A stretch of 41,864 bases of DNA from a virus, in IMG/VR virus record IMGVR_UViG_3300047673_000207, positions 1-41,864 of that record; one strand, given 5' to 3'. The notes under the pieces are model-generated. The model had not been told where the DNA came from and made no database searches. It was given only the letters and a program-made list of their open reading frames with translations. Positions 8,966 through 41,626 of this stretch are shown piece by piece; position 1 is the stretch's first letter, and each line of letters opens with the position of its first letter. The position numbers were made by a program, and so were the translations under genes.

Positions 8966-9511
8966 ATGCGGTTCGTGCAACTGGCCTCTGGTGTTGACAT
9001 GGTTCCGGTGCTGCTGGAGCTGAACCGTGCCGCGCACCTATGGGACCGCAACCCGGAGCGACGACTGTATCCCGGAACTCCCCATGCGGCCATGACCGAC
9101 ATCACCGTGCGCTACATGCCAGAGGAGCAACTGACCGGGCTCGAGGCGCGGCGGCTGGAGCATCGGAACGTGTTCTGGCCGGCATGGTATGAGTTGCCAT
9201 CACTGCGACCGATGATCTTCGCGCTGATGAACCGTGTGGCCTGCGTGGAGCTTGGCAGCATCCTGCTCACTAAGTTGCCGCCGGGGGCTGATATCCTGCC
9301 GCATACTGACGCGGGAAGCTGGGCGCCGGAATACTACAACTGCAAGGCGCATCTGACGCTGGCTGGCACAGCGCTGGTGCATTGCTGCGAAGCAGTGCAG
9401 CGATTCGACACCGGGACCATCTGGACGTTTGACAACCTGCGCATTCACTCAATCACCAACGATGGTGCTGTGGACAGGATTGTCTGCATCGTGAGCATGA
9501 GGTGCGAATGA
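8966..9511 (+). CDS. 2-oxoglutarate/Fe(II) oxygenase-like protein (Asp/Asn beta-hydroxylase type)
   Basis: The protein has 181 residues. 'LPPGADILPHTDAGSW' gives H113 and D115, and 'FDNLRIHSITND' gives the distal H161. R171 in 'DRIVCIVSMR' fits the 2-oxoglutarate-binding arginine. This HxD...H...R order is that of double-stranded beta-helix oxygenases, closest to aspartyl/asparaginyl beta-hydroxylases. The substrate is unknown; a virion or host protein side chain is plausible. It overlaps the cupin gene by 4 bases. Its presence between tail and ejection-protein genes is unusual. Confidence 0.7.
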   Translation: MRFVQLASGVDMVPVLLELNRAAHLWDRNPERRLYPGTPHAAMTDITVRYMPEEQLTGLEARRLEHRNVFWPAWYELPSLRPMIFALMNRVACVELGSILLTKLPPGADILPHTDAGSWAPEYYNCKAHLTLAGTALVHCCEAVQRFDTGTIWTFDNLRIHSITNDGAVDRIVCIVSMRCE

Positions 9512-18360: not shown

Positions 18361-18720
18361 TTAGGAGTGCTGCTTCACTCTTGTTTTTCGAGGCCCTGGG
18401 TTATCCGGCGGTGGATCACCGGCTGCGGCTGCGAAAAGCTCGACCATTGTCAGAAGCGTTGCCTGCTTGTCTGGCGGCAATGATCGAATTGTCTGAGCTA
18501 TTGCCTCTGTGATCTCATCGACCGGCATGCCGGGGATCAGATCGCCAATGCTGATTTTTAGCAGGGCTGCCAGCTCTACGCGCTTGCCGATCGAGGGTTT
18601 GGTCAGTCCGCTTTCCCACTGATTGACCGCACTTGGGTTCACCCCCAGCGCCTTTGTGACATACCGCTGGGTGAAGCCTAGCTCGGCGCGGGCCGACCGG
18701 ATTCTCTGGCCAATTGGCAT
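18361..18720 (-). CDS. XRE-family repressor (CI-like immunity regulator)
   Basis: The start is placed at ATG 18720, giving 119 residues; longer readings run into the divergent regulatory region. Residues 5-60 are an XRE helix-turn-helix: 'IGQRIRSARAELGFTQRYVT' then 'ALGVNPSAVNQWESGLTKPS' with the recognition helix in the second block. The C-terminal half (EITEAIAQTIRSLPPDKQAT) is a short helical region that may dimerise; there is no LexA-type peptidase domain. It is divergent from a Cro-like gene across a 105-base spacer with palindromes, the layout of a lysogeny switch. Confidence 0.75.
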   Translation of the reverse strand: MPIGQRIRSARAELGFTQRYVTKALGVNPSAVNQWESGLTKPSIGKRVELAALLKISIGDLIPGMPVDEITEAIAQTIRSLPPDKQATLLTMVELFAAAAGDPPPDNPGPRKTRVKQHS

Positions 18721-18766
18721 GGCTATGGTATGCCACACCGACAGTTGAGTTTCCCTTAACAAATAG

Positions 18767-18782
18767 TGTGCGGTTGCGCACA
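18767..18782. promoter_or_regulatory. Operator-like palindrome in repressor/Cro intergenic region
   Basis: TGTGCG-GTTG-CGCACA is a perfect inverted repeat with six-base arms around a four-base centre. It lies in the 105-base gap between the divergent XRE repressor and Cro-like genes, the expected place for an operator. A second palindrome, GGCTG-GA-CAGCC, lies at 18788-18799, and the hexamer CTTAAC occurs at 18745 and 18812. I could not assign matching -35/-10 elements with confidence. Confidence 0.5.
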
Positions 18783-18825
18783 ATTGAGGCTGGACAGCCG
18801 ATTTAGTGACGCTTAACCTGCCCAG

Positions 18826-19068
18826 ATGGCCGCTGTTCTCACCGGAATGGACCTGCTGCGCTCCCCCGCCTGTCGTGGGGTTCGCACTTTGATCGCCCGT
18901 GAGCTTGGCATCGAGAAGGGGGCTATCTCGCAGTGGAAGGTCATACCGGCCGAGCGGGTGCCGCCCATTAGCCGCATCACCGGCATCCCACGTCACTTGC
19001 TGCGGCCCGATCTGTGGGATCCGCCCTGCGGCTGCGGCCAGCATGAGCCAGCGGAGGCTGCCGGCTGA
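18826..19068 (+). CDS. Cro/YdaS-like regulator
   Basis: The protein has 80 residues from ATG 18826. ATG 18847 (MDLLRSPACRGVRTLIAREL) fits the family start better, but neither has a strong ribosome-binding site. The helix-turn-helix 'LIARELGIEKGAISQWK' is followed by 'IPAERVPPISRITGIPRHLL' and 'RPDLW', the conserved ending of YdaS/Cro-type proteins. It is divergent from the repressor and is the first gene of the rightward early operon, so it probably represses the repressor promoter and drives lytic development. Confidence 0.7.
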   Translation: MAAVLTGMDLLRSPACRGVRTLIARELGIEKGAISQWKVIPAERVPPISRITGIPRHLLRPDLWDPPCGCGQHEPAEAAG

Positions 19069-19101
19069 CGACCTGACGCCTGCACCAAGGGAGGGAACCG
19101 T

Positions 19102-19173
19102 ATGCACACACACAATGGCCTGCTCACACGACAACTCCCGCTCGACTTCTGGCAGCTTGGCGTAGTGGCGTAA
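19102..19173 (+). CDS. Very small ORF with strong ribosome-binding site
   Basis: ATG 19102 is preceded by AAGGGAGGGAACCGT, an excellent Shine-Dalgarno sequence. It encodes only 23 residues (MHTHNGLLTRQLPLDFWQLG and three more) and ends 5 bases before the next GTG start. It could be a real micropeptide or a leader that couples translation into the following gene. Confidence 0.4.
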   Translation: MHTHNGLLTRQLPLDFWQLGVVA

Positions 19174-19178
19174 GCGTC

Positions 19179-19565
19179 GTGGCCAAGTCACCACAGAAAT
19201 CCTGCGACATGGCCGAGTTCGCCATCCCATTGGTGCGCAAGCTGGTGGGCGCGCGCCGACGCTATGGCATCGCCTGGGACGCCTCTTTCACGGATGCGGG
19301 ACTGGAGCTGGGCATCAGCCCATGGCGCTGCCGGACGCTCTACTACCGGCTGGCGGGCATTCGCCCGGTGCTGTTCGCCGAGTGGAACAGGCTGAGGGAG
19401 CGCGGCGCGCTGATGCTGCGGCAGGAAGCCGCGCGGCTGCGGCGGTTTGCCGATGAGCTGGACGCCGAGGCCGACGCCCTGGAGAGCGGCCAGAGCAATT
19501 ACCCACGGAGCGACGGATGCGAACCTGCGCCTGGCGACGCTGCCTTGCGCGAGGCGGCCGATTAG
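19179..19565 (+). CDS. Hypothetical early protein
   Basis: The GTG start at 19179 gives 128 residues. The first half (IPLVRKLVGARRRYGIAWDA ... AGLELGISPWRCRTLYYRLA) looks like a helix-turn-helix-type fold, and the second half is a long acidic/Arg helix (LMLRQEAARLRRFADELDAE). A DNA-binding regulator is possible but not demonstrated. It lies early in the rightward operon. Confidence 0.55.
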   Translation: MAKSPQKSCDMAEFAIPLVRKLVGARRRYGIAWDASFTDAGLELGISPWRCRTLYYRLAGIRPVLFAEWNRLRERGALMLRQEAARLRRFADELDAEADALESGQSNYPRSDGCEPAPGDAALREAAD

Positions 19566-32036: not shown

Positions 32037-32055
32037 ATGAGCGATACCGCAATCC
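32037..32055 (+). repeat. Portal-start repeat, copy R3 (true portal start)
   Basis: ATGAGCGATACCGCAATCC is the first 19 bases of the portal gene and the third copy of this repeat. No ribosome-binding site precedes it; the upstream bases serve the divergent minus-strand gene. Confidence 0.65.
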
Positions 32056-34250
32056 ATCTCCACGTCCATACCGGCGACCGCGGCCCCGACACGCCGCCGG
32101 CGATCCGTGACCTGACGGGCGGCGATCCAGACGCTTACCCGAAGGATCTTGATGACCTTCATGGGAAGCTAGTCAGGTGGTTCGAAGAGTCAGAAATGGC
32201 TCGGATGGATGAAATAGAATTAGCTCAGCGTGACCGTGAATATTTTGATGGGTTTCAATGGACCAGAGAAGAACTCAAACTATTAAAGGAGCGGGGTCAA
32301 CCCGCTATCGTAATAAATAAGGTGGCTGATAAGGTTCAGCTATTATGCGGGATGGAAAGAAAGGCTCGTACTGACCCCAAGGCGTTTAGTCGCACGCCAG
32401 CCGAGGAGGATCGCGCCGACGCTGCCACGCAGGCATTGAGATACATTGCGGATGACAACGACTTCTCCATCGTGCGCAGCGAAGTGTTCTCCAACATGCT
32501 CATCGAAGGCGCTGGTGGCGCTGACCTGGGCCTCGAGGACGACGGGCAAGGCTCGTGCAACATCACGATCACCACCATCCCGTGGGATCGCATCTGGTAC
32601 GATCCGCACAGCCGCAGCTACGATTTCAGTGATGCGCGCTATAAGGGCATGGTCATCTGGACCGATAGGGACGCCCTCGAGGAGATGTATCCCGACGCGG
32701 ACGATGTGATTGAGAGCAGCTTCAGCAGCACCGACTACCAGTACAACGACCGGCCGGAAACGGCGTTCTGGACCGACAACAACCGCAGACGTGTGCGGCT
32801 CGTGCAATGCGACTGGGCCGAGCGTGGCACCTGGTGGCGCGCGACCTATACCAAGTCGGGGCTGCTGGCCGCGCCACAGCGCTCCAAGTTCAAGGACCGC
32901 AAGGGCAAGTCGTGCAGCGGGCTGCTGCTGCAATCCAGCTACATCAATCGCGAGAACCAGCGTTACGGCATGGTGCGGGGCCTGATCAGCCTACAGGACG
33001 AGATCAACAAGCGGCGCTCCAAGGCGCTGCACCTGTTGTCAGTCCGCCAGGTCGTCGCAGAGAAGGGCGCTGTGCCGGATGTCGATAAGGCACGCCGCGA
33101 GGTCGCCAAGCCGGACGGCTACGTGGAGGTGATGCCGGGGCTGAAGTTCGAGATCGAGCAGACCGCGGACCTCGCCGCAGGTCAGTTCCAGTTGCTGCAA
33201 CACGCCACCGCCGAGATGCAACTCTCGGGGCCGAATGCAGCCATGTCGGGCACCGACCCGCGCGAGTTGTCGGGCCGTGCAGTATTGGCGATGCAAGCAG
33301 GGGGTGCCGCGCAGAACGAGCCGTTGGCCGACGCGCTGCGGTTCTGGAGCAGGCGGGTATATGAAGTTTGTTGGCAAGCCGCAAGGGAATACTGGTCGGG
33401 CGGAAAATGGGTCAGGGTCACGGATAACCTAGGGGAGACGCGTTGGGTTGGAATTAACCGACCCGTCAGACTGATGGATCGCTTGGCTGATATGCCAGAG
33501 CAACATCGGGCTATGGTTATGCAACAAATGCAACTACAGCCTGGCGATCCTAGATTGCAGCAGGTAGTTGGTATCGAGCATGACATTTCGGATTTAGATG
33601 TAGATATCACCATTGAAGAGGGCATAGATATTCCATCGCTACAAGCGGAAGAATTTCAGTCGCTAGTCCAACTGGCTTCGGTACAGCCAGGATTGATCCC
33701 TGGCGATGTCTTAATCGCGGCGTCAGGGCTGCGCGACAAGGATCAGATCCTCGAGCGCATGAAGGAGCACCAGCAGCAGCAGCAGCAGGCACAGCAGCAG
33801 GCAGGGCAACTCGCAACACAGCACGCGCAAGCGGACATCGCTGGCAAGCAGGCGAAAGCGCAGGCGGACATGGCGCTGGCGCAGGAGCGCAAGGTCAACG
33901 CCGCGGCCAACGTGCATTCCGTGCATGGCGAGTTCAGCGCACCACCCTACGGGCAGCCGCATGTGGCGCCGGACAACCCGCCTGGCGCGTCACAGCCGAT
34001 GCAGCCGCCGTTGGACCCTGAGCAGATGGATCCGCAAATGGCAGCGATGCACCACATGGCCGATCTGCAGAAGAAGGCCGCCGACATCAGCAAGACGCGC
34101 GCCGACACGATGCTCACCGCGGCGAAGATCCCGCACACCGCACAGCAGACGCTGCACACCGCGCACCAGACGCACAACACCGCTGTGACCACGAACAGAT
34201 TGCTCCGCACGCCGATTCCACAGCCAGCACCGCCAGGGAGCGCGCCATAA
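32037..34250 (+). CDS. Portal protein, P22-like
   Basis: The 737 residues have features of P22-type portals: 'REYFDGFQWTREELKLLKER', 'VINKVADKVQLLCGMERKAR', 'EGAGGADLGLEDD', 'INRENQRYGMVRGLISLQDE', then 'INKRRSKALHLLSVRQVV' and 'DPRELSGRAVLAMQAGGAAQ'. A Gln-rich helix and a helical C-terminal extension follow, corresponding to the portal barrel. It forms the dodecameric DNA channel at one vertex, docking to terminase and then gp4-like protein. Bases about 32150-32390 and 33350-33720 use more A/T-rich codons than the rest, indicating mosaic exchange inside the gene. Confidence 0.85.
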   Translation: MSDTAIHLHVHTGDRGPDTPPAIRDLTGGDPDAYPKDLDDLHGKLVRWFEESEMARMDEIELAQRDREYFDGFQWTREELKLLKERGQPAIVINKVADKVQLLCGMERKARTDPKAFSRTPAEEDRADAATQALRYIADDNDFSIVRSEVFSNMLIEGAGGADLGLEDDGQGSCNITITTIPWDRIWYDPHSRSYDFSDARYKGMVIWTDRDALEEMYPDADDVIESSFSSTDYQYNDRPETAFWTDNNRRRVRLVQCDWAERGTWWRATYTKSGLLAAPQRSKFKDRKGKSCSGLLLQSSYINRENQRYGMVRGLISLQDEINKRRSKALHLLSVRQVVAEKGAVPDVDKARREVAKPDGYVEVMPGLKFEIEQTADLAAGQFQLLQHATAEMQLSGPNAAMSGTDPRELSGRAVLAMQAGGAAQNEPLADALRFWSRRVYEVCWQAAREYWSGGKWVRVTDNLGETRWVGINRPVRLMDRLADMPEQHRAMVMQQMQLQPGDPRLQQVVGIEHDISDLDVDITIEEGIDIPSLQAEEFQSLVQLASVQPGLIPGDVLIAASGLRDKDQILERMKEHQQQQQQAQQQAGQLATQHAQADIAGKQAKAQADMALAQERKVNAAANVHSVHGEFSAPPYGQPHVAPDNPPGASQPMQPPLDPEQMDPQMAAMHHMADLQKKAADISKTRADTMLTAAKIPHTAQQTLHTAHQTHNTAVTTNRLLRTPIPQPAPPGSAP

Positions 34251-34728: not shown

Positions 34729-35907
34729 ATGGCAACCCTGACTGTCGGCAACGGCCAGAGCATTCAGGCCGCGATTGATGCCGCCGCACCAGGCGACACG
34801 ATCGACGTGCAGGCGGGCACCTACACCGACCAGTTCCTCACCATCCGCACCTCGATTACGCTGCAGGCGGTGAATGGCGAAGTCCAACTCGTAGCAACGC
34901 AGCAACCACCGGATGGGAAAGCTTACATCACGGAGGGCGCCAGTGGCATCAGCGTGGCGATCAATGGGTTCGATATTAGCGGGGTGGCTGTACCGGACGG
35001 AAATGGCGCTGCGATCCGCTACGAGGGCGGCGGTCTCTCGCTGTCGGACGACTACTTCCACGACAACCAAGAAGGATTGCTCGGCGCCGCTGTTAGCAAC
35101 GGTTCAATTGCCATCGACCATTCCGAGTTCGCCCATAACGGCGATGGCAGTGGATCAACTCACAACATCTATGTCGGAGCAATTGCGAGCTTCAGCCTTA
35201 CGAACTCGTACATCCACGACGCGGTCGTAGGCCACGAGGTCAAGAGCCGCGCCGCCAACAACACCATCACCGGCAACCGCATCTTCGACAACGGCGGCAG
35301 CGCCTCCTACAGCATCGACCTGCCGAACGGCGGCAACGCCACGATCAGCGGCAACACGATAGAGCAAGGTCCGAACACCCAGAACCCGTTCGTCGTGGCC
35401 TACGGTGAAGAGGGCGCATCCAACCCAGGCACCAGCTTCGCCATCACCGGAAACGCCATCGTCAACGACGATCCGTCCGGGCGGTTCCTGCTCGACACCG
35501 CAACGCAGCCGACGCTGAGCGGCAACAGCGTCTGGGGGCTGCCCGCTATCGGTGACACCGTGCTGCTGGCCAACCGGCCGAGCCTGGAAACCAGCGCCAT
35601 GACGTTCGTCAATCCCACCAATCCTCCGGCGGGAGTTGGCGGATCACCACCATCCCCAGAACCGTCCCCACCACCGCCAGTATCACCACCGCCGCCAACA
35701 GAGCCGCCGCCATTGCCACCTCCCGAGCCCCCGCCAGTGCTGCCGCCTGACCCGCTGCCATTACCGCCGCCAGAGCCACCACCGCTACCGCCGCCGACAC
35801 CAACGCCCACGCCATCACCGCCCCCCGTGCAGCACGGGCATATGGGGCACCACCATCAGCTCGCTGCTGCGCTGCGGGACTTTCTGGCGCCACACACGCA
35901 CACGTAA
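34729..35907 (+). CDS. Beta-helix protein with Pro-rich C-terminal tail
   Basis: The protein has 392 residues. Residues 1-290 are a right-handed parallel beta-helix: 'SIQAAIDAAAPGDTIDVQAG', then repeats with N-x-I/F-x-x-N patterns such as 'NNTITGNRIFDNGG' and 'NATISGNTIEQG'. A run of about 70 residues, mostly Pro with Ser, Glu and Leu, leads to a His-rich end (HGHMGHHHQ). No signal peptide is seen. It could be a second receptor-binding or decoration protein; the Pro run would act as a stalk. Its position after a cut methyltransferase suggests acquisition. Confidence 0.65.
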   Translation: MATLTVGNGQSIQAAIDAAAPGDTIDVQAGTYTDQFLTIRTSITLQAVNGEVQLVATQQPPDGKAYITEGASGISVAINGFDISGVAVPDGNGAAIRYEGGGLSLSDDYFHDNQEGLLGAAVSNGSIAIDHSEFAHNGDGSGSTHNIYVGAIASFSLTNSYIHDAVVGHEVKSRAANNTITGNRIFDNGGSASYSIDLPNGGNATISGNTIEQGPNTQNPFVVAYGEEGASNPGTSFAITGNAIVNDDPSGRFLLDTATQPTLSGNSVWGLPAIGDTVLLANRPSLETSAMTFVNPTNPPAGVGGSPPSPEPSPPPPVSPPPPTEPPPLPPPEPPPVLPPDPLPLPPPEPPPLPPPTPTPTPSPPPVQHGHMGHHHQLAAALRDFLAPHTHT

Positions 35908-35955
35908 CGACGCAACGACGTACGACGCCTACGCATCAACACATGGAGACATCTG

Positions 35956-36405
35956 ATGCCAACATTCCGCGTCACATCCGGGGCTCTGACGCTCGATAGC
36001 GTTGGGGGCAATTACCCGAGCAATGAGCTCCCAGGCGATCAGCCTGGTATCGACAATTCGCTGCCAATTCCTCCACCGCCACCGGGGATTTGGCCGCCTC
36101 CTGTGCCGGCGCACCCAATAGTGCCGATCCCGCCGGGAGGCAGCACGCCGCCGCCGGGAACGATCTGGCCCAGCCCTGGCCATCCAGCGCACCCGATAGC
36201 TCCCGGTGGCTCACCGCCGCGGCCCGATCAGACGCTACCGCCGACTGGCATGGACCCACATCCGTCTCACCCAATCGCGTCAGGCACGTACTGGTGCCTC
36301 GTGTATCTACCGGGCTTCGGGTGGAAATATGTGGTCATCGATCCATCACTGCATGTGGACGTCTCTCCGCCGGCACCACAACCAGCGCCGACGCCGCATA
36401 AATAA
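35956..36405 (+). CDS. Pro-rich hypothetical protein
   Basis: The protein has 149 residues. The first 30 residues (PTFRVTSGALTLDSVGGNYP) are followed by about 80 residues rich in Pro, Gly and His with a loose 'P-x-HPI' repeat. A small beta domain (SGTYWCLVYLPGFGWKYVVI) closes the protein. It shares a Pro-rich character with its upstream neighbour. It is probably a surface or virion-linked protein; no family is assigned. Confidence 0.5.
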   Translation: MPTFRVTSGALTLDSVGGNYPSNELPGDQPGIDNSLPIPPPPPGIWPPPVPAHPIVPIPPGGSTPPPGTIWPSPGHPAHPIAPGGSPPRPDQTLPPTGMDPHPSHPIASGTYWCLVYLPGFGWKYVVIDPSLHVDVSPPAPQPAPTPHK

Positions 36406-36413
36406 TCTACGCG

Positions 36414-36953
36414 TCAATCGTGTCTAGCGAACACACCATGCAGCCGGGTCGCGGCCTCAAACCGCGCCTTGGCTGCTTCCTCCAAAGTCTTGAAGCGGCC
36501 AAGAGCAATATCCTTGCCGTTGAACATGATGCGGGCGCGATAGCTGCCATGAGGCAGGAGGCCGACGCCTTTGATGCCGGTGGTGTTGTTCTTCCGCTTT
36601 CCGGAATTGGCGCCGTTTTGGAGCTTCGTGGCAGCCCGCAAGTTGGTGAACCGATTGTTCAGCTTGTTGTGGTCAATATGGTCGATGACATCCGGCACAG
36701 GCTCGCCGTGCATATAGAGCCAGACGAGGCGATGAGCACGATATTGGATGTGTCCGACAGCGACCCTCAAATGACCGGCAGGATTGATGGTGCCAGCGGC
36801 TTTGCCAGCATATCGAGTGTTCCAGAGGCGGAAGTTTTGTTCGTTGCGGAACATACTGCGCGGGCGCGGCTTCCAGGCGAACACACCGCTAGCCACATCA
36901 TAGTGGAGAAGTTGCCGCACCAAGTCTCGGTCTGGCAGTTTGCGAATAGCCAT
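36414..36953 (-). CDS. HNH homing endonuclease with AP2 DNA-binding domain
   Basis: The start at 36953 follows CGGAGGACCGAT. The protein has 179 residues. Residues 74-108 are an HNH core: 'AHRLVWLYMHGEPVPDVIDH' and 'IDHNKLNNRFTNLRAAT'. Residues about 125-175 are an AP2-type domain: 'TGIKGVGLLPHGSYRARIMF' and 'IALGRFKTLEEAAKARFEAA'. This is a standard free-standing phage homing endonuclease layout. It is transcribed against its neighbours and is the third HNH gene here. It probably cuts DNA of related phages at or near this locus. Confidence 0.85.
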   Translation of the reverse strand: MAIRKLPDRDLVRQLLHYDVASGVFAWKPRPRSMFRNEQNFRLWNTRYAGKAAGTINPAGHLRVAVGHIQYRAHRLVWLYMHGEPVPDVIDHIDHNKLNNRFTNLRAATKLQNGANSGKRKNNTTGIKGVGLLPHGSYRARIMFNGKDIALGRFKTLEEAAKARFEAATRLHGVFARHD

Positions 36954-37021
36954 ATCGGTCCTCCGAACGGGATCGTTGGTCAGGGTGCCTGGGCCGTGGC
37001 AAGCGGCTCAGGTTCCCGCTT

Positions 37022-37027
37022 TATAAC
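37022..37027 (+). promoter_or_regulatory. Possible -10 element upstream of the PEP-CTERM gene
   Basis: TATAAC stands out in an AT-rich patch (TTTATAACATAACAA) within a GC-rich genome, 24 bases before ATG 37051. The best upstream match at suitable spacing, GGCAAG, is poor, so the call is weak. A private promoter would fit a gene expressed from a prophage. Confidence 0.3.
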
Positions 37028-37050
37028 ATAACAACCAGGGGCTTCACGTC

Positions 37051-37833
37051 ATGAAACACAATGCGGGCCAGGATACGTTAGTGCCGCGCCTTGCTTCAAC
37101 GACGGGGTTCGAGCACGACCCCATCTCAGCGCCCCACCGCATCGCGTCGACCGCACAAGCGGCCCGTGGGGCATCGACAATTCGGCGTATCCTCGCTCGC
37201 GTTGGTTATGGCACGGTCATCGTGGCGGGCGCCATGTTCTTCCACGCGCCGGCCCATGCCACGGTCATCCTCTCGTTCGGCCAGACTGCCGGGACGCCGA
37301 TCACGGCGACGGAGAACGGCGCGCAGACCGCCACCACGCTCAGCGCTGTCGACGCGCCGATCGCCATCACGCAGATCGAGAACGGCTCGCCGGTCAATGC
37401 GTTCTTCGACCTCAGTGCTGCGTCCGATGGTGCTGCCGTGCCGATCCTGGGGGGAAGTGCTCAGAAATTCTCTGGCACGTTCAGCATCACTAGTTCCATT
37501 GGCGGCACCGGCACCAACTACCTGTCGGGCGTGTTCAGCGACGTGACCTTCGGCAGCGGCGCTGGTGGAGCGCTGGCTGTCGGTGCGCCGCCTGATGTGC
37601 TCACTCTGACCAGCGACGTGATCACCGACCTGTTCAATCCGAGCGCGGTGGGGTTGGCTTTCGCGAATATCACGCCGGCATTCCAGATCGTGGGCACCAG
37701 CATCGGCAGCTTCACGAGTTCCGTGTCGGGCACGTTCTCAGCATCGCCTGCGGCAGTACCGGAGCCGGCCACACTGGCGCTGCTCGGGGTGGGGCTGCTC
37801 GGGTTGGGGTTGGTGCGTCAGCGGCGTGCGTGA
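37051..37833 (+). CDS. PEP-CTERM sorting-signal protein
   Basis: The protein has 260 residues. Residues about 45-70 form a signal peptide (RRILARVGYGTVIVAGAMFF then HAPAHA, cleavage near A70), preceded by an unusually long N-terminal extension. The mature part is Gly/Ser/Thr-rich and beta-type (NGSPVNAFFDLSAAS, SGVFSDVTFG). The C-terminus is a complete PEP-CTERM signal: 'VPEPATLALLG', a hydrophobic helix and terminal 'RQRRA'. In bacteria, exosortase recognises this signal and the protein is exported with extracellular polysaccharide. A phage copy could alter the host surface. No exosortase is encoded here, so it would rely on the host. Confidence 0.85.
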   Translation: MKHNAGQDTLVPRLASTTGFEHDPISAPHRIASTAQAARGASTIRRILARVGYGTVIVAGAMFFHAPAHATVILSFGQTAGTPITATENGAQTATTLSAVDAPIAITQIENGSPVNAFFDLSAASDGAAVPILGGSAQKFSGTFSITSSIGGTGTNYLSGVFSDVTFGSGAGGALAVGAPPDVLTLTSDVITDLFNPSAVGLAFANITPAFQIVGTSIGSFTSSVSGTFSASPAAVPEPATLALLGVGLLGLGLVRQRRA

Positions 37834-38024
37834 TGAGCGAGGAAAAGACGACCAGACTGTGGCTATGGAAGAACGGCGACCATTACCTCGCATTCGACAA
37901 TCCGTGCCCGACGTATGGTGGCGGCGACCCGATGACGCTGGGAGAGCCGGTGGCGATTGCCATTCTCACGTCATCAACGCCTGGCTGGCAGCAATGGGAT
38001 GACCAGGGGCGTTACGTGGGCTGA
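37833..38024 (+). CDS. Small hypothetical protein
   Basis: ATG 37833 overlaps the PEP-CTERM stop by one base (TGATG); GTG 37830 is an alternative. The 63 residues (TRLWLWKNGDHYLAFDNPCP ... PVAIAILTSSTPGWQQWDDQ) are Trp-rich and beta-type. The coupling shows that it shares a transcript with its neighbours. The function is unknown. Confidence 0.55.
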   Translation: MSEEKTTRLWLWKNGDHYLAFDNPCPTYGGGDPMTLGEPVAIAILTSSTPGWQQWDDQGRYVG

Positions 38025-38377
38025 TGGCCGAGGCGCCGCCCAACGGCAACGGCCACACCACGGTCGTGCAGGCGGCGATCAAGCTTGGCGGGCAGGCTGC
38101 GCACACGCTCGGCCCCCAGTTTCTGGCGCTGATCATCGTGAACGGTCTGGCGCTGGGCTTCCTGTTCTGGTTCGTGGATGCCCGCGCGCGACACACCGCC
38201 GACGTGCTCAATCAGTTGCTGCACGCTTGTCTTACGAAGTAGGTCGGCCAGCGTCGGGATCAGCTTTGGCGGGCAGGAGGAGCGGACCGGGAGATGGATC
38301 GCGGTGAGCCTGCACCGCTGGCACTGATACCCTTGTTCCCCGTTCGTGGCCGTGATCGCCAGCCATTCGTGGGCCAT
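38012..38377 (-). CDS. Small Cys-containing protein, antisense to the holin candidate
   Basis: ATG 38377 is preceded by a strong AGGAGGCGGC. The first 45 residues lie in otherwise empty DNA and look like protein: 'MAHEWLAITATNGEQGYQCQ', 'RCRLTAIHLPVRSSCPPKLI', with a CxxC and a later Cys as in small phage zinc ribbons. The rest is antisense to 38024-38242 and may be only a run-on. Only the N-terminal part is well supported. Confidence 0.4.
   Translation of the reverse strand: MAHEWLAITATNGEQGYQCQRCRLTAIHLPVRSSCPPKLIPTLADLLRKTSVQQLIEHVGGVSRAGIHEPEQEAQRQTVHDDQRQKLGAERVRSLPAKLDRRLHDRGVAVAVGRRLGHQPT
38024..38242 (+). CDS. Single-span membrane protein, holin or spanin candidate
   Basis: The 72 residues overlap the previous stop by one base. 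An N-terminal soluble part (NGNGHTTVVQAAIKLGGQAA) is followed by one transmembrane segment (FLALIIVNGLALGFLFWFVD) and a charged helix (ARARHTADVLNQLLHACLTK). This fits a small holin-like protein of alphaproteobacterial phages, but no endolysin lies beside it. Confidence 0.55.
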   Translation: MAEAPPNGNGHTTVVQAAIKLGGQAAHTLGPQFLALIIVNGLALGFLFWFVDARARHTADVLNQLLHACLTK

Positions 38378-38453
38378 GCCGCCTCCTACTCTTCAAAATT
38401 CCCATTTCCGATAGCTACCCCCAGTCAGGTGCCAGTTGCCACAATTAGAGGCC

Positions 38454-38942
38454 ATGGAAGCTGACCTTTTCGCCTCGATCGCGCCACCCCATCAGAGCCG
38501 AACTGTGCCGGCAGACAACAAGTTCCACCAGGGCAATGGCGAGGATGGCAAGCACTACTGGGTGACGCCACCCGACGTTTACGCCAGCCTGCACGCCGAG
38601 TTCCGGTTCACCTTCGATCCGTGCCCCTGGCCTCTGCCGATCGGCTTTGATGGTCTGACCTGTGAATGGGGCGCGTCAAACTACGTCAACCCGCCATTTG
38701 GATCCATCATCCACGAGGGCAAGAAGAAGGGCCCGACCGCCTGGGTGCGGAAGGCCCTGGCCGAGTGGCGAAAGGGCAAGCGGGTGGTGTTGGTCTATCC
38801 GGTGGACAAGTGGGTGCTGATGCTGCTGGAGGCCGGGGCCACGGTGCGCAACCTGCGGGATGTTCGCTGGCTGGCCACCGAGGACGGGTCGGTGGGCAAT
38901 GGAACGGGGCGGCATGTGGCCTGCTTCATTCTCGAGCCATAG
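38454..38942 (+). CDS. Phage DNA N6-adenine methyltransferase (Dam-like)
   Basis: ATG 38454 with AGAGG upstream gives 162 residues; TTG 38436 is an alternative. 'DGKHYWVTPPDVYASLHAEF' and 'RFTFDPCPWP' open the family fold. 'WGASNYVNPPFGS' holds the catalytic NPPF motif (79-82), and 'RVVLVYPVDKWVLMLLEAGA' and 'HVACFILEP' complete it. This compact phage family (DNA N-6-adenine-methyltransferase) usually modifies short adenine sites to avoid restriction. All core parts are present, so it is probably active, unlike the two broken adenine/N4 methyltransferases elsewhere in the genome. A strong hairpin follows. Confidence 0.8.
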   Translation: MEADLFASIAPPHQSRTVPADNKFHQGNGEDGKHYWVTPPDVYASLHAEFRFTFDPCPWPLPIGFDGLTCEWGASNYVNPPFGSIIHEGKKKGPTAWVRKALAEWRKGKRVVLVYPVDKWVLMLLEAGATVRNLRDVRWLATEDGSVGNGTGRHVACFILEP

Positions 38943-38950
38943 GCAAAGAA

Positions 38951-38981
38951 AAGCCCCGTCTCACACGGGAGAGCGGGGCTT
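38951..38981. terminator. Terminator hairpin after the adenine methyltransferase
   Basis: AAGCCCCG and CGGGGCTT pair, with TCTC/GAGA extending the stem inside and one bulged G. The 5' flank is AAAGAAA, giving a T-rich tail on the minus strand; the plus-strand side has only TTGAGAGG. It lies 9 bases after the stop, fitting transcription termination, perhaps in both directions. Confidence 0.6.
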
Positions 38982-39033
38982 GAGAGGTTCTCTGACTTAT
39001 CGCGGCCCCATCCTAGCACAGCGGAGAGCCGCC

Positions 39034-39342
39034 ATGCCAGCCAGAGCCAGCATGAAGTACGTGGTGAGCGTTCCCTGGTCCGACGAGGAGCGCGCACGGC
39101 TGCGCCAGATGTGGGCCAACGGGATGGGGCCAACGCTCATCGGAAAGATGCTGGGGCGTAGCAAATACAGCGTCACCAAGCAGACGCAGGCACTGAAGCT
39201 GCCGCGACACCGGCTGCCGCCCGGCCTGGCGCCGACGCCGGAACCCCGCCAGCGACCACCACAACCGCTGCGACCCGGCGCGCGCACGCTGCCGCCGCTG
39301 CCGAGTGAACTGACGGCCGAGAACCTATCCTCCCACGGGTGA
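39034..39342 (+). CDS. GcrA-like helix-turn-helix protein
   Basis: ATG 39034 has GCGGAGAGCCGCC upstream. The 102 residues begin 'MPARASMKYVVSVPWSDEER', then 'ARLRQMWANGMGPTLIGKML' and 'GRSKYSVTKQTQALKLPRHR', which matches the GcrA N-terminal pattern (W-[ST]-D-E ... G-x-S/P-x-x-I-G/A). A Pro-rich tail follows. GcrA is an alphaproteobacterial cell-cycle regulator that recruits sigma-70 at adenine-methylated promoters. An adenine methyltransferase gene lies directly upstream, so the two may act together. Confidence 0.6.
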   Translation: MPARASMKYVVSVPWSDEERARLRQMWANGMGPTLIGKMLGRSKYSVTKQTQALKLPRHRLPPGLAPTPEPRQRPPQPLRPGARTLPPLPSELTAENLSSHG

Positions 39343-39424: not shown

Positions 39425-40315
39425 ATGGCCAACGAGCAACTTGAGAGCTTCCTCAAGGGCGAGACCGCGACCGTCACGGACGCCTCCGCACCGGCCCCGC
39501 AGGCAGCGCCAGAGCCGCCGGCACCGAAGCCTGAGGCAAAGGCCGAGCCGGCCGCTAAGCAGGCCACAGCGAAGCCGGAACCCGAGGATGAGGCTGACGC
39601 AGAGCCGACCGACCGGCTCGAGCAGGACGGCAAGAGCTACATCCCGCAGCAAGTGCTGGAGCGCGAACGCCAGCGCCGCCAGGATTGGAAAGCCCGTGCG
39701 GTCGAGGCCGAGACCAAGCACAAGGAGCTGCAACGCCAACTGGATGAGGCAACCCGCCGCGCTACCGCCCCGCCACCGCAGCCACAGGCGCCACCACAGC
39801 CGCCGCCGGACCCGGCCACCAACCCGCAGGGCTGGGCGCAGCACGTCGTCCAGCAGCAACAGGCAGCGCTGCTCAACGAGCGGCTCAACAACAGCGAGAT
39901 GATGCTGGCCGATAAGATCGGGCAAGAGAAATTGTCCGAGTACGTCTCCGAGTTCCGCAACCTGGCCAACGCCGACCCGACGCTGTTCGGCAAGCTCTAC
40001 AGCCAGCCGCATCCCTATGCGTGGCTGACCCGCGAGGTCGACCGCCTGCGCCTGGTGCGCGATGTCGGTGACGATCCAGCCGCATACCGCGAGAAGATAC
40101 TGGCCGAGGAGCGCGTTAAGTGGGAGGCCGAGGCTAAGGCCGCACCAGCCGTCTCACCCGCCGCCGGCATGCAACCATCGTTGGGCACTGCGCGCAGCGT
40201 CGCAGGACGCACCGCGGGGGCATGGACCGGCGAGCCGAGCCTCGAGGATGTGCTCAGTGTCGTCCAGAACCGCAAGCGGCCCAACGGCGCTGGCGGCGGC
40301 TCAGTGCGTTACTAA
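39425..40315 (+). CDS. Capsid scaffolding protein
   Basis: The 296 residues start after GAGGATCACC. The N-terminal 60 residues are Ala/Pro/Glu-rich and disordered. Residues 70-130 are a charged coiled coil (YIPQQVLERERQRRQDWKAR, then ETKHKELQRQLDEATRRA). A Pro/Gln linker and helical C-terminal half follow. Composition, length and position between portal and major capsid are typical of podovirus scaffolds, which guide shell assembly and leave before packaging. Confidence 0.75.
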   Translation: MANEQLESFLKGETATVTDASAPAPQAAPEPPAPKPEAKAEPAAKQATAKPEPEDEADAEPTDRLEQDGKSYIPQQVLERERQRRQDWKARAVEAETKHKELQRQLDEATRRATAPPPQPQAPPQPPPDPATNPQGWAQHVVQQQQAALLNERLNNSEMMLADKIGQEKLSEYVSEFRNLANADPTLFGKLYSQPHPYAWLTREVDRLRLVRDVGDDPAAYREKILAEERVKWEAEAKAAPAVSPAAGMQPSLGTARSVAGRTAGAWTGEPSLEDVLSVVQNRKRPNGAGGGSVRY

Positions 40316-40510: not shown

Positions 40511-41626
40511 ATGGCTGACATGATCCTAACCCCGGCAAGACCGGGCTTAACCCCAATACAGTGGCAATCAGACTTCTGGGTAGAGTTCCTCCGAGAAAAT
40601 CAGTTCACACCGTATTTCGGCACCACTATGGATGCCATGATACAGTTGCAAACTGATCTTACGCGCAAACCCGGCGATACTGTCGTCTTTCCCACGGTCA
40701 GGAACCTGGTCGGGGCAGGCGTTTCCGGCAACACGGTGCTCGAGGGCAACGAAGAAATACTAAACGCCAGATCGCTGAACGTCGTGGTCAGCGTCATTCG
40801 TCATGCCGTGGCGGTGTCGGACTGGGACGAACAGAAATCGGTGATCGACCTGCTGCAAGCCGGCAGGAGCGTCTTGAAGAACTGGGCCGCGAATAAGCTC
40901 AGGACGGACATCATCTCGTCGCTCGGGGCGATCACCGCAGACGGCAACGTGCAGGTTACCTACGCCGCCGCCACCGCCGCCCAGCGCAATACCTGGCTGG
41001 TGAACAACGCCGATCGGGTGCTGTTCGGGATCTCCAAGGCCAACGCAGTCAGCGGTGTATATGCAACTGCATTGGCAACCGTCGATAACGCAGCCGACAA
41101 GATGACCGCCGCTCAGATCACTCTCGCAAAGCGGCTGGCGCGCACCGCAACGCCCAAGATCCGCCCCATCCGGATAAGCAACGACGAGGAATGGTACGTG
41201 ATGTTCGTGCCGAGCCTCGTGTTCCGCGACCTGATGCTCGACCCGGTCATCATCAACGCGCTGCAATACGCCTGGAACCGTGGGTCCGATAACCCGCTGT
41301 TCACCGCCGGTGATCTGATTTATGACGGGGTCATCATCCGTGAAATCCCCGAGCTGCCGATCCTGCATACCGGTGATCCCGGTGGCTCCACCATCGACTG
41401 CGGCGCGTCCTACCTCTGCGGCGCACAGGCTCTCGGCATCGCCTGGGCCCAGAGAACCAAGGTGATAACCAACACTCGTGACTATGGCTTCATGAACGGC
41501 GTTGGCGTTGAGGAAATCCGTGGCGTTGCGAAATTGCGCTTCGGCACTGATCCAACGGTGGACACGACGAAACCCGTCGATAATGGCGTGATGACCGTTT
41601 GGAGCGCCGCAGTCGCTGACGCATGA
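40511..41626 (+). CDS. Major capsid protein, N4 gp56-like family
   Basis: The 371 residues fit the N4-gp56/DUF4043-type HK97-fold capsid proteins: 'MIQLQTDLTRKPGDTVVFPT', 'LVGAGVSGNTVLEGNEEILN', 'VRHAVAVSDWDEQKS'-like segment and later 'EEWYVMFVPSLVFRDLMLDP', 'GDLIYDGVIIREIPELPIL', 'CGAQALGIAWAQRTK'. It follows the scaffold gene. Unusually for a highly expressed gene, no ribosome-binding site precedes ATG 40511 (CGGAACCCCAAACA); a repeated structured leader lies upstream. The first 180 bases have more A/T-rich codon use than the rest. Confidence 0.85.
   Translation: MADMILTPARPGLTPIQWQSDFWVEFLRENQFTPYFGTTMDAMIQLQTDLTRKPGDTVVFPTVRNLVGAGVSGNTVLEGNEEILNARSLNVVVSVIRHAVAVSDWDEQKSVIDLLQAGRSVLKNWAANKLRTDIISSLGAITADGNVQVTYAAATAAQRNTWLVNNADRVLFGISKANAVSGVYATALATVDNAADKMTAAQITLAKRLARTATPKIRPIRISNDEEWYVMFVPSLVFRDLMLDPVIINALQYAWNRGSDNPLFTAGDLIYDGVIIREIPELPILHTGDPGGSTIDCGASYLCGAQALGIAWAQRTKVITNTRDYGFMNGVGVEEIRGVAKLRFGTDPTVDTTKPVDNGVMTVWSAAVADA

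Follow-up and report, generated by a model that had tools for sequence, protein, structure and literature searches.

Proteins with a PEP-CTERM sorting signal have so far been described as a cellular system linked to exopolysaccharide. The exosortase (EpsH) substrates of Gram-negative bacteria, which are captured by the models PF07589 and TIGR02595, combine a signal peptide, an ectodomain of non-enzymatic appearance, a PEP motif, a membrane helix and a basic tail, and a model of their processing by exosortase is available (Haft et al., PMC1569441). Most of their genes form single-gene operons with a large intergenic region and a sigma-54-type site (PMC1569441), and proteins of the PepA type are needed for flocculation and the retention of bound exopolysaccharide (PMC9850573). 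Here, we analyzed the complete 41,864 nucleotides of the virus record IMGVR_UViG_3300047673_000207 (the window), in which the open reading frame at positions 37051-37833 encodes a protein of apparently the same overall architecture; exosortase also occurs in the probable host group. Unlike the bacterial substrates, the phage protein is encoded in a late operon, and the exosortase would be supplied by the host in trans. PepA (NF033554), an exported PEP-CTERM protein, is the top-scoring NCBIfam model; however, the similarity is confined to the tail half of the phage protein, which reaches 43.2 bits against a cut-off of 80, and the ectodomain alone has no NCBIfam match, so that membership in the PepA family was rejected.

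The window is a near-complete circular genome of a P22-like soil phage, with genes for a terminase, a P22-like portal, capsid and ejection proteins, RecT, Gam, an antiterminator and methyltransferases. Its two ends have 17 bp in common, and a contig from a relative (L007) joins the window's end to its start, which together indicate a near-complete, circular-mapping sequence. The PEP-CTERM gene lies in a variable slot between the portal and scaffold/capsid genes, with the following features:

32037..34250, plus strand: P22-like portal protein (family matches), left border of the variable slot
34729..35907, plus strand: right-handed beta-helix protein with a proline-rich tail (family match; relatives in the Sabulicella family with 40-58% amino acid identity)
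35956..36405, plus strand: g32, a proline-rich protein containing PDNxLPG-type repeats; its gene directly precedes that of the PEP-CTERM protein in several types of phage
36414..36953, minus strand: HNH endonuclease cassette between g32 and the PEP-CTERM gene, variable in relatives
37022..37027, plus strand: TATAAC, named a "private -10" in the earlier sequence-only reading; lies within the flank of the HNH cassette and is not conserved with the gene
37028..37050, plus strand: conserved leader with ribosome-binding site (AACAACCAGGGGCTTCACGTC), the sole conserved upstream element
37051..37833, plus strand: PEP-CTERM protein, 260 aa (stop codon 37831-37833)
37051..37209, plus strand: N-terminal extension, residues 1-53, peculiar to the window phage; relatives have 6 codons (MKHALL) here
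37180..37260, plus strand: region of the predicted Sec signal peptide (about residues 44-70), with APAHA at its end (sequence, model helix, hydropathy peak, relatives' starts)
37261..37752, plus strand: all-beta ectodomain, residues 71-234, a cassette traded among phages (model, dN/dS, pairwise identities)
37753..37830, plus strand: PEP-CTERM sorting signal AVPEPATLALLGVGLLGLGLVRQRRA (family matches, relatives, DNA similarity to the host family)
37833..38024, plus strand: g35, a 63-aa open reading frame that overlaps the PEP-CTERM stop (TGATG), conserved in part of the clade
38024..38242, plus strand: 72-aa open reading frame with one apparent membrane helix (by eye) and no family match
39425..40315, plus strand: scaffold-like protein on the right side of the slot (weak family matches, adjoins the capsid gene, conserved neighbour)
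40511..41626, plus strand: major capsid protein (family matches)

About 16 contigs that span the slot, some of them near-identical, carry the PEP-CTERM gene at this position. In three others (L118, L119 and L122) it lies elsewhere, which in L118 and L122 is 3' of the ejection genes on the same strand. The gene is dispensable, because the slot lacks it in L075 and in five more distant relatives. L075, a close relative (IMGVR_UViG_3300045141_000187; portal 91%), is also the sole record of 27 with a resolvase match. Five of the nine related records tested (G202, G206, G211, G212 and G218) have direct end repeats of 95-127 bp and thus represent complete circular genomes. The sequence-only reading had considered the protein phage-encoded and had named contamination by host DNA as the finding that would speak against this. 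The cellular character of the motif is the one point in favor of contamination or of an assembly chimera, but the gene occupies the same slot in many independent and divergent phage contigs, complete circular genomes among them. This synteny excludes host contamination, leaving such artefacts a vanishingly small probability, and bears out the assignment of the gene to the phage.

The C-terminus of the protein (AVPEPATLALLGVGLLGLGLVRQRRA) matches PF07589 with 30.2 bits (E = 4e-7; cut-off 20.7 bits), and its last 26 residues match TIGR02595 with 24.9 bits (cut-off 16 bits), so that the PEP motif, hydrophobic stretch and basic tail score above the curated cut-offs. These three elements are kept in 49 of 53 non-redundant viral relatives, confirming that the open reading frame ends in the full PEP-CTERM signal that had been recognized from its letters. 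The gene is under purifying selection (dN/dS about 0.17), with codon comparisons yielding values of 0.36 for the signal, 0.17 for the ectodomain and 0.16 for the tail, and the latter two argue that the PEP-CTERM signal is not due to chance. Judging by its sorting signal, the protein is probably a phage-encoded exosortase substrate.

The signal peptide, which was also part of the sequence-only reading, is found at an unusual place. Close relatives begin with MKHALL or MKRLLA, followed directly by a hydrophobic core and an AxA-like site. The N-terminus of the window copy is about 47 aa longer than that of all relatives, since their six codons are replaced by 53, and the inserted DNA occurs only in the window and in contigs identical to it. 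Owing to this insert, the predicted signal peptide has a long n-region and is internal (about residues 44-70). Its prediction agrees with a hydropathy peak and a helix in the structural model. The 47-aa extension of this copy may hamper export.

The AlphaFold model, based on an alignment of 62 sequences (mean pLDDT 81), comprises a helix at residues 41-63, a confident all-beta domain at residues 71-231 and a second helix at residues 240-259. Foldseek searches of the PDB and BFVD returned no match to the ectodomain with E <= 0.001, and a sequence search of the PDB with the PEP-CTERM protein gave nothing significant. The best VIA match (Z 7.8, rmsd 3.4 over 125 residues) was tied with several beta-barrel proteins, and the VIA scores, all below 8, were spread over Omp-like, allene-oxide-cyclase/dirigent and, at lower values, streptavidin-like barrels.

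A search of viral databases for relatives, as suggested in the sequence-only reading, proved productive: a single-protein query identified 39 IMG/VR loci with relatives. With a broader profile, the number of confirmed stretches rose to at least 120, 80 of which were kept. Annotated phages, PHROGs and plasmids contained no relative of the protein. Comparisons between individual phages yielded discordant identities for the ectodomain and its flanks. Between the window and L153, the DNA of the ectodomain is 55.6% identical, as opposed to 91% for the sorting signal and 94.7% for the 190 nt downstream, and the values for L004 and L078 are 65% for the ectodomain and 94% downstream. Conversely, L153 and L072 share an ectodomain with 95.6% identity, with only 46% identity in the downstream DNA. 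The leader and first codons are near-identical in the window, L004, L153, L078 and L020. These patterns show that the exposed domain moves between phages as a unit, being traded as a cassette while the export and sorting signals and the flanks stay the same. Such an exchange fits a protein that is forced to keep matching variable surface partners.

As to its expression, about 35 nt upstream of the ATG, including the ribosome-binding site, are conserved in relatives, and in L013 the gene follows the preceding stop codon after 31 nt. The TATAAC proposed as a private -10 element belongs to the HNH cassette flank that is common to relatives and is not conserved upstream of the gene in relatives; in addition, a consensus scan of positions 35900-38500 detected no promoter-like or terminator-like sites, so that the proposal was dropped. 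The gene lies inside the late structural operon. Given the lack of a promoter, a conserved region limited to the leader and the TGATG overlap with the next reading frame, its transcription most likely depends on this operon. The promoter and terminator of its own that characterize a lysogenic-conversion moron were thus not found by the consensus scan, and neither a tyrosine integrase nor a resolvase was detected in the window (tyrosine integrase: 3 of 30 related records; resolvase: 1 of 27). With a late operon, no private promoter and no integrase, the classical lysogenic conversion suggested by the sequence-only reading is not supported; the superinfection exclusion or biofilm effect that it also proposed may still apply.

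A first scan of cellular genomes with close relatives as the query found nothing, and a broader profile detected the family in two of 84,980 cellular species genomes, those of Sabulicella rubraurantiaca and Roseococcus sp. MDT2-1-1, both Acetobacterales, a count to be read in the light of a scan seeded by short peptide patterns, which can miss more distant cellular members. A sample of 200 genomes from the Sabulicella family, which the NCBI taxonomy calls Acetobacteraceae, contained two further genomes with distant full-length matches, and a profile of the ectodomain matched one of 385 sampled Alphaproteobacteria, namely the Sabulicella genome. The Sabulicella and Roseococcus proteins are PAP-type CTERM paralogues with a homologous ectodomain (about 37-43% identity to the phage protein of L061) and the same architecture, but unlike the phage protein they carry VPAPA instead of VPEPA and occur in multiple copies, and their surroundings contained no detected relatives of phage genes from the window. 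The Sabulicella genome (loci L106-L114 stem from Sabulicella and Roseococcus) has about ten copies of the family with a VPAPA tail, in places beside other VPAPA-CTERM genes.

Several observations link the phage to this group of bacteria. One Sabulicella-family genome harbors an integrated relative of the phage (59% for the portal, 63% for the capsid), and portal matches in a wider sample of the class lie at 29-36%. For the sorting signal, genomes of this family contain sites with about 75-88% DNA identity across 47-90 nt, and the DNA of the beta-helix gene matches many of these genomes at about 64-78%. Exosortase, whose presence in likely hosts was another point that the sequence-only reading had recommended checking, is encoded in both cellular genomes with the family and in 75 of the 200 sampled Sabulicella-family genomes, Sabulicella included. 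A phage-borne exosortase was discarded as an option, as none was found in 30 phage records. On the basis of the integrated relative and the DNA matches, the host is probably an exosortase-bearing member of the Acetobacteraceae. An alphaproteobacterial host would also agree with the GcrA-like regulator at 38860-39342 (weak Pfam match), which is conserved 3' of the PEP-CTERM gene in phages of several types.

With relatives in more than 100 viral contigs and an exposed domain that is swapped, these viruses probably use the host exosortase to present a protein of their own on the infected cell. From the features described, we infer that the gene is transcribed late and that its product is exported, cleaved, displayed on the surface and active in exclusion. 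Expression of the late structural operon would supply the protein, whose anatomy predicts Sec export and, following the model of Haft et al. (PMC1569441), processing by an exosortase of the host. The N-terminal signal peptide would direct it into the host Sec pathway. Its C-terminal hydrophobic helix would then hold it in place so that the PEP motif faces the periplasm, until the host exosortase cuts off the tail and passes the all-beta ectodomain on to the extracellular matrix or the surface of the cell. There, it would most likely change the surface of the infected cell in favor of the phage late in infection, perhaps by blocking the adsorption of competing phages and/or preventing the loss of progeny on infected cells and debris. 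A related strategy is known from phage T5, whose early lipoprotein Llp, a surface-exclusion protein, is displayed by infected cells, where it prevents adsorption and thereby spares the progeny. The role proposed here resembles that of Llp in display and adsorption block, whereas the phage protein would differ in being anchored and processed by the host exosortase. A change in the infected-cell surface appears to be the most economical benefit, and the late position of the gene and the cassette exchange are the two features that point to exclusion. Against the proposed mechanism speak the possible impairment of export by the N-terminal extension, the occurrence of exosortase in only 75 of 200 sampled genomes of the probable host family, and the absence of the gene from the slot in L075 and five other relatives. 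We tentatively favor this reading, and with greater reserve its extension to a widespread class of soil phages, in which a cassette-diversified, exosortase-using surface protein would serve as a late exclusion or progeny-protection device.

The main alternative is a role in the matrix, where the protein could bind exopolysaccharide, causing infected cells to aggregate or keep bound polymer and thereby aiding the local spread of progeny. It draws on the requirement for PEP-CTERM proteins such as PepA in flocculation and exopolysaccharide retention (PMC9850573), on the multi-copy PAP-type relatives of Sabulicella and Roseococcus and on the adjoining beta-helix gene, which also has many relatives in Sabulicella-family genomes. 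However, the resemblance to PepA stays below the cut-off and does not extend to the ectodomain, and late expression before lysis would leave scant time to alter the matrix, so that we consider this role rather unlikely.

It is less likely still that the gene acts as a moron through which a quiescent prophage modifies the lysogen's surface, given the lack of a private promoter or an integrase. The window encodes an HTH repressor-like protein (18361-19230, minus strand) in a phage with no detectable integrase, and one relative of this phage type is indeed integrated in a Sabulicella-family genome, yet this relative lacks the PEP-CTERM gene, most relatives are devoid of a tyrosine integrase or resolvase, and the gene lies within the late operon. 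Finally, the tail itself could be the active part, with an abundant phage substrate occupying the host exosortase late in infection and stripping host PEP-CTERM proteins from the surface, leaving a minor role to the ectodomain. The constraint on the tail and the similarity of its DNA to host tails agree with such a decoy, but purifying selection acts on the ectodomain as strongly as on the tail, and the ectodomain has an exchange history of its own, which makes this the least probable of the functional readings. Late display and exclusion remain our preferred interpretation.

The sorting system is known, but it seems not to have been described before that phages use it repeatedly and exchange the ectodomain. 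A literature search outside subscription papers retrieved no report on phage-encoded PEP-CTERM proteins, and a candidate paper on Microcystis was set aside because it concerns host genes. If correct, our interpretation would provide a first example of PEP-CTERM/exosortase use by a virus, in which the ectodomain is switched in the manner of an antigen or a specificity cassette. The repeated presence and reshuffling of such a protein in a phage family imply that exosortase-dependent display counts during infection, and the swapping of the exposed domain next to unchanged sorting signals suggests that surface recognition is under selection. The phage protein offers an experimentally accessible way to approach both the function of PEP-CTERM proteins, which is poorly understood, and the biology of Acetobacteraceae phages.

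Several other genes deserve mention. The beta-helix gene, with DNA similar to that of many Sabulicella-family genomes, is a second probably host-derived gene in the slot. Proteins like g32, which has no PHROG or Pfam match, share a similar C-terminal end around DPSL, and their genes lie close to the PEP-CTERM gene in several phages that otherwise differ, L037, L059 and L117 among them. Among the tail and ejection genes, the reading frame at 8966-9511 encodes an aspartyl/asparaginyl beta-hydroxylase-like protein (PF05118, above cut-off). Moreover, some phage contigs contain two adjacent PEP-CTERM-type genes with different ectodomains (L037, 8055-9671; L148, 7185-8722; L165, 9165-10606).
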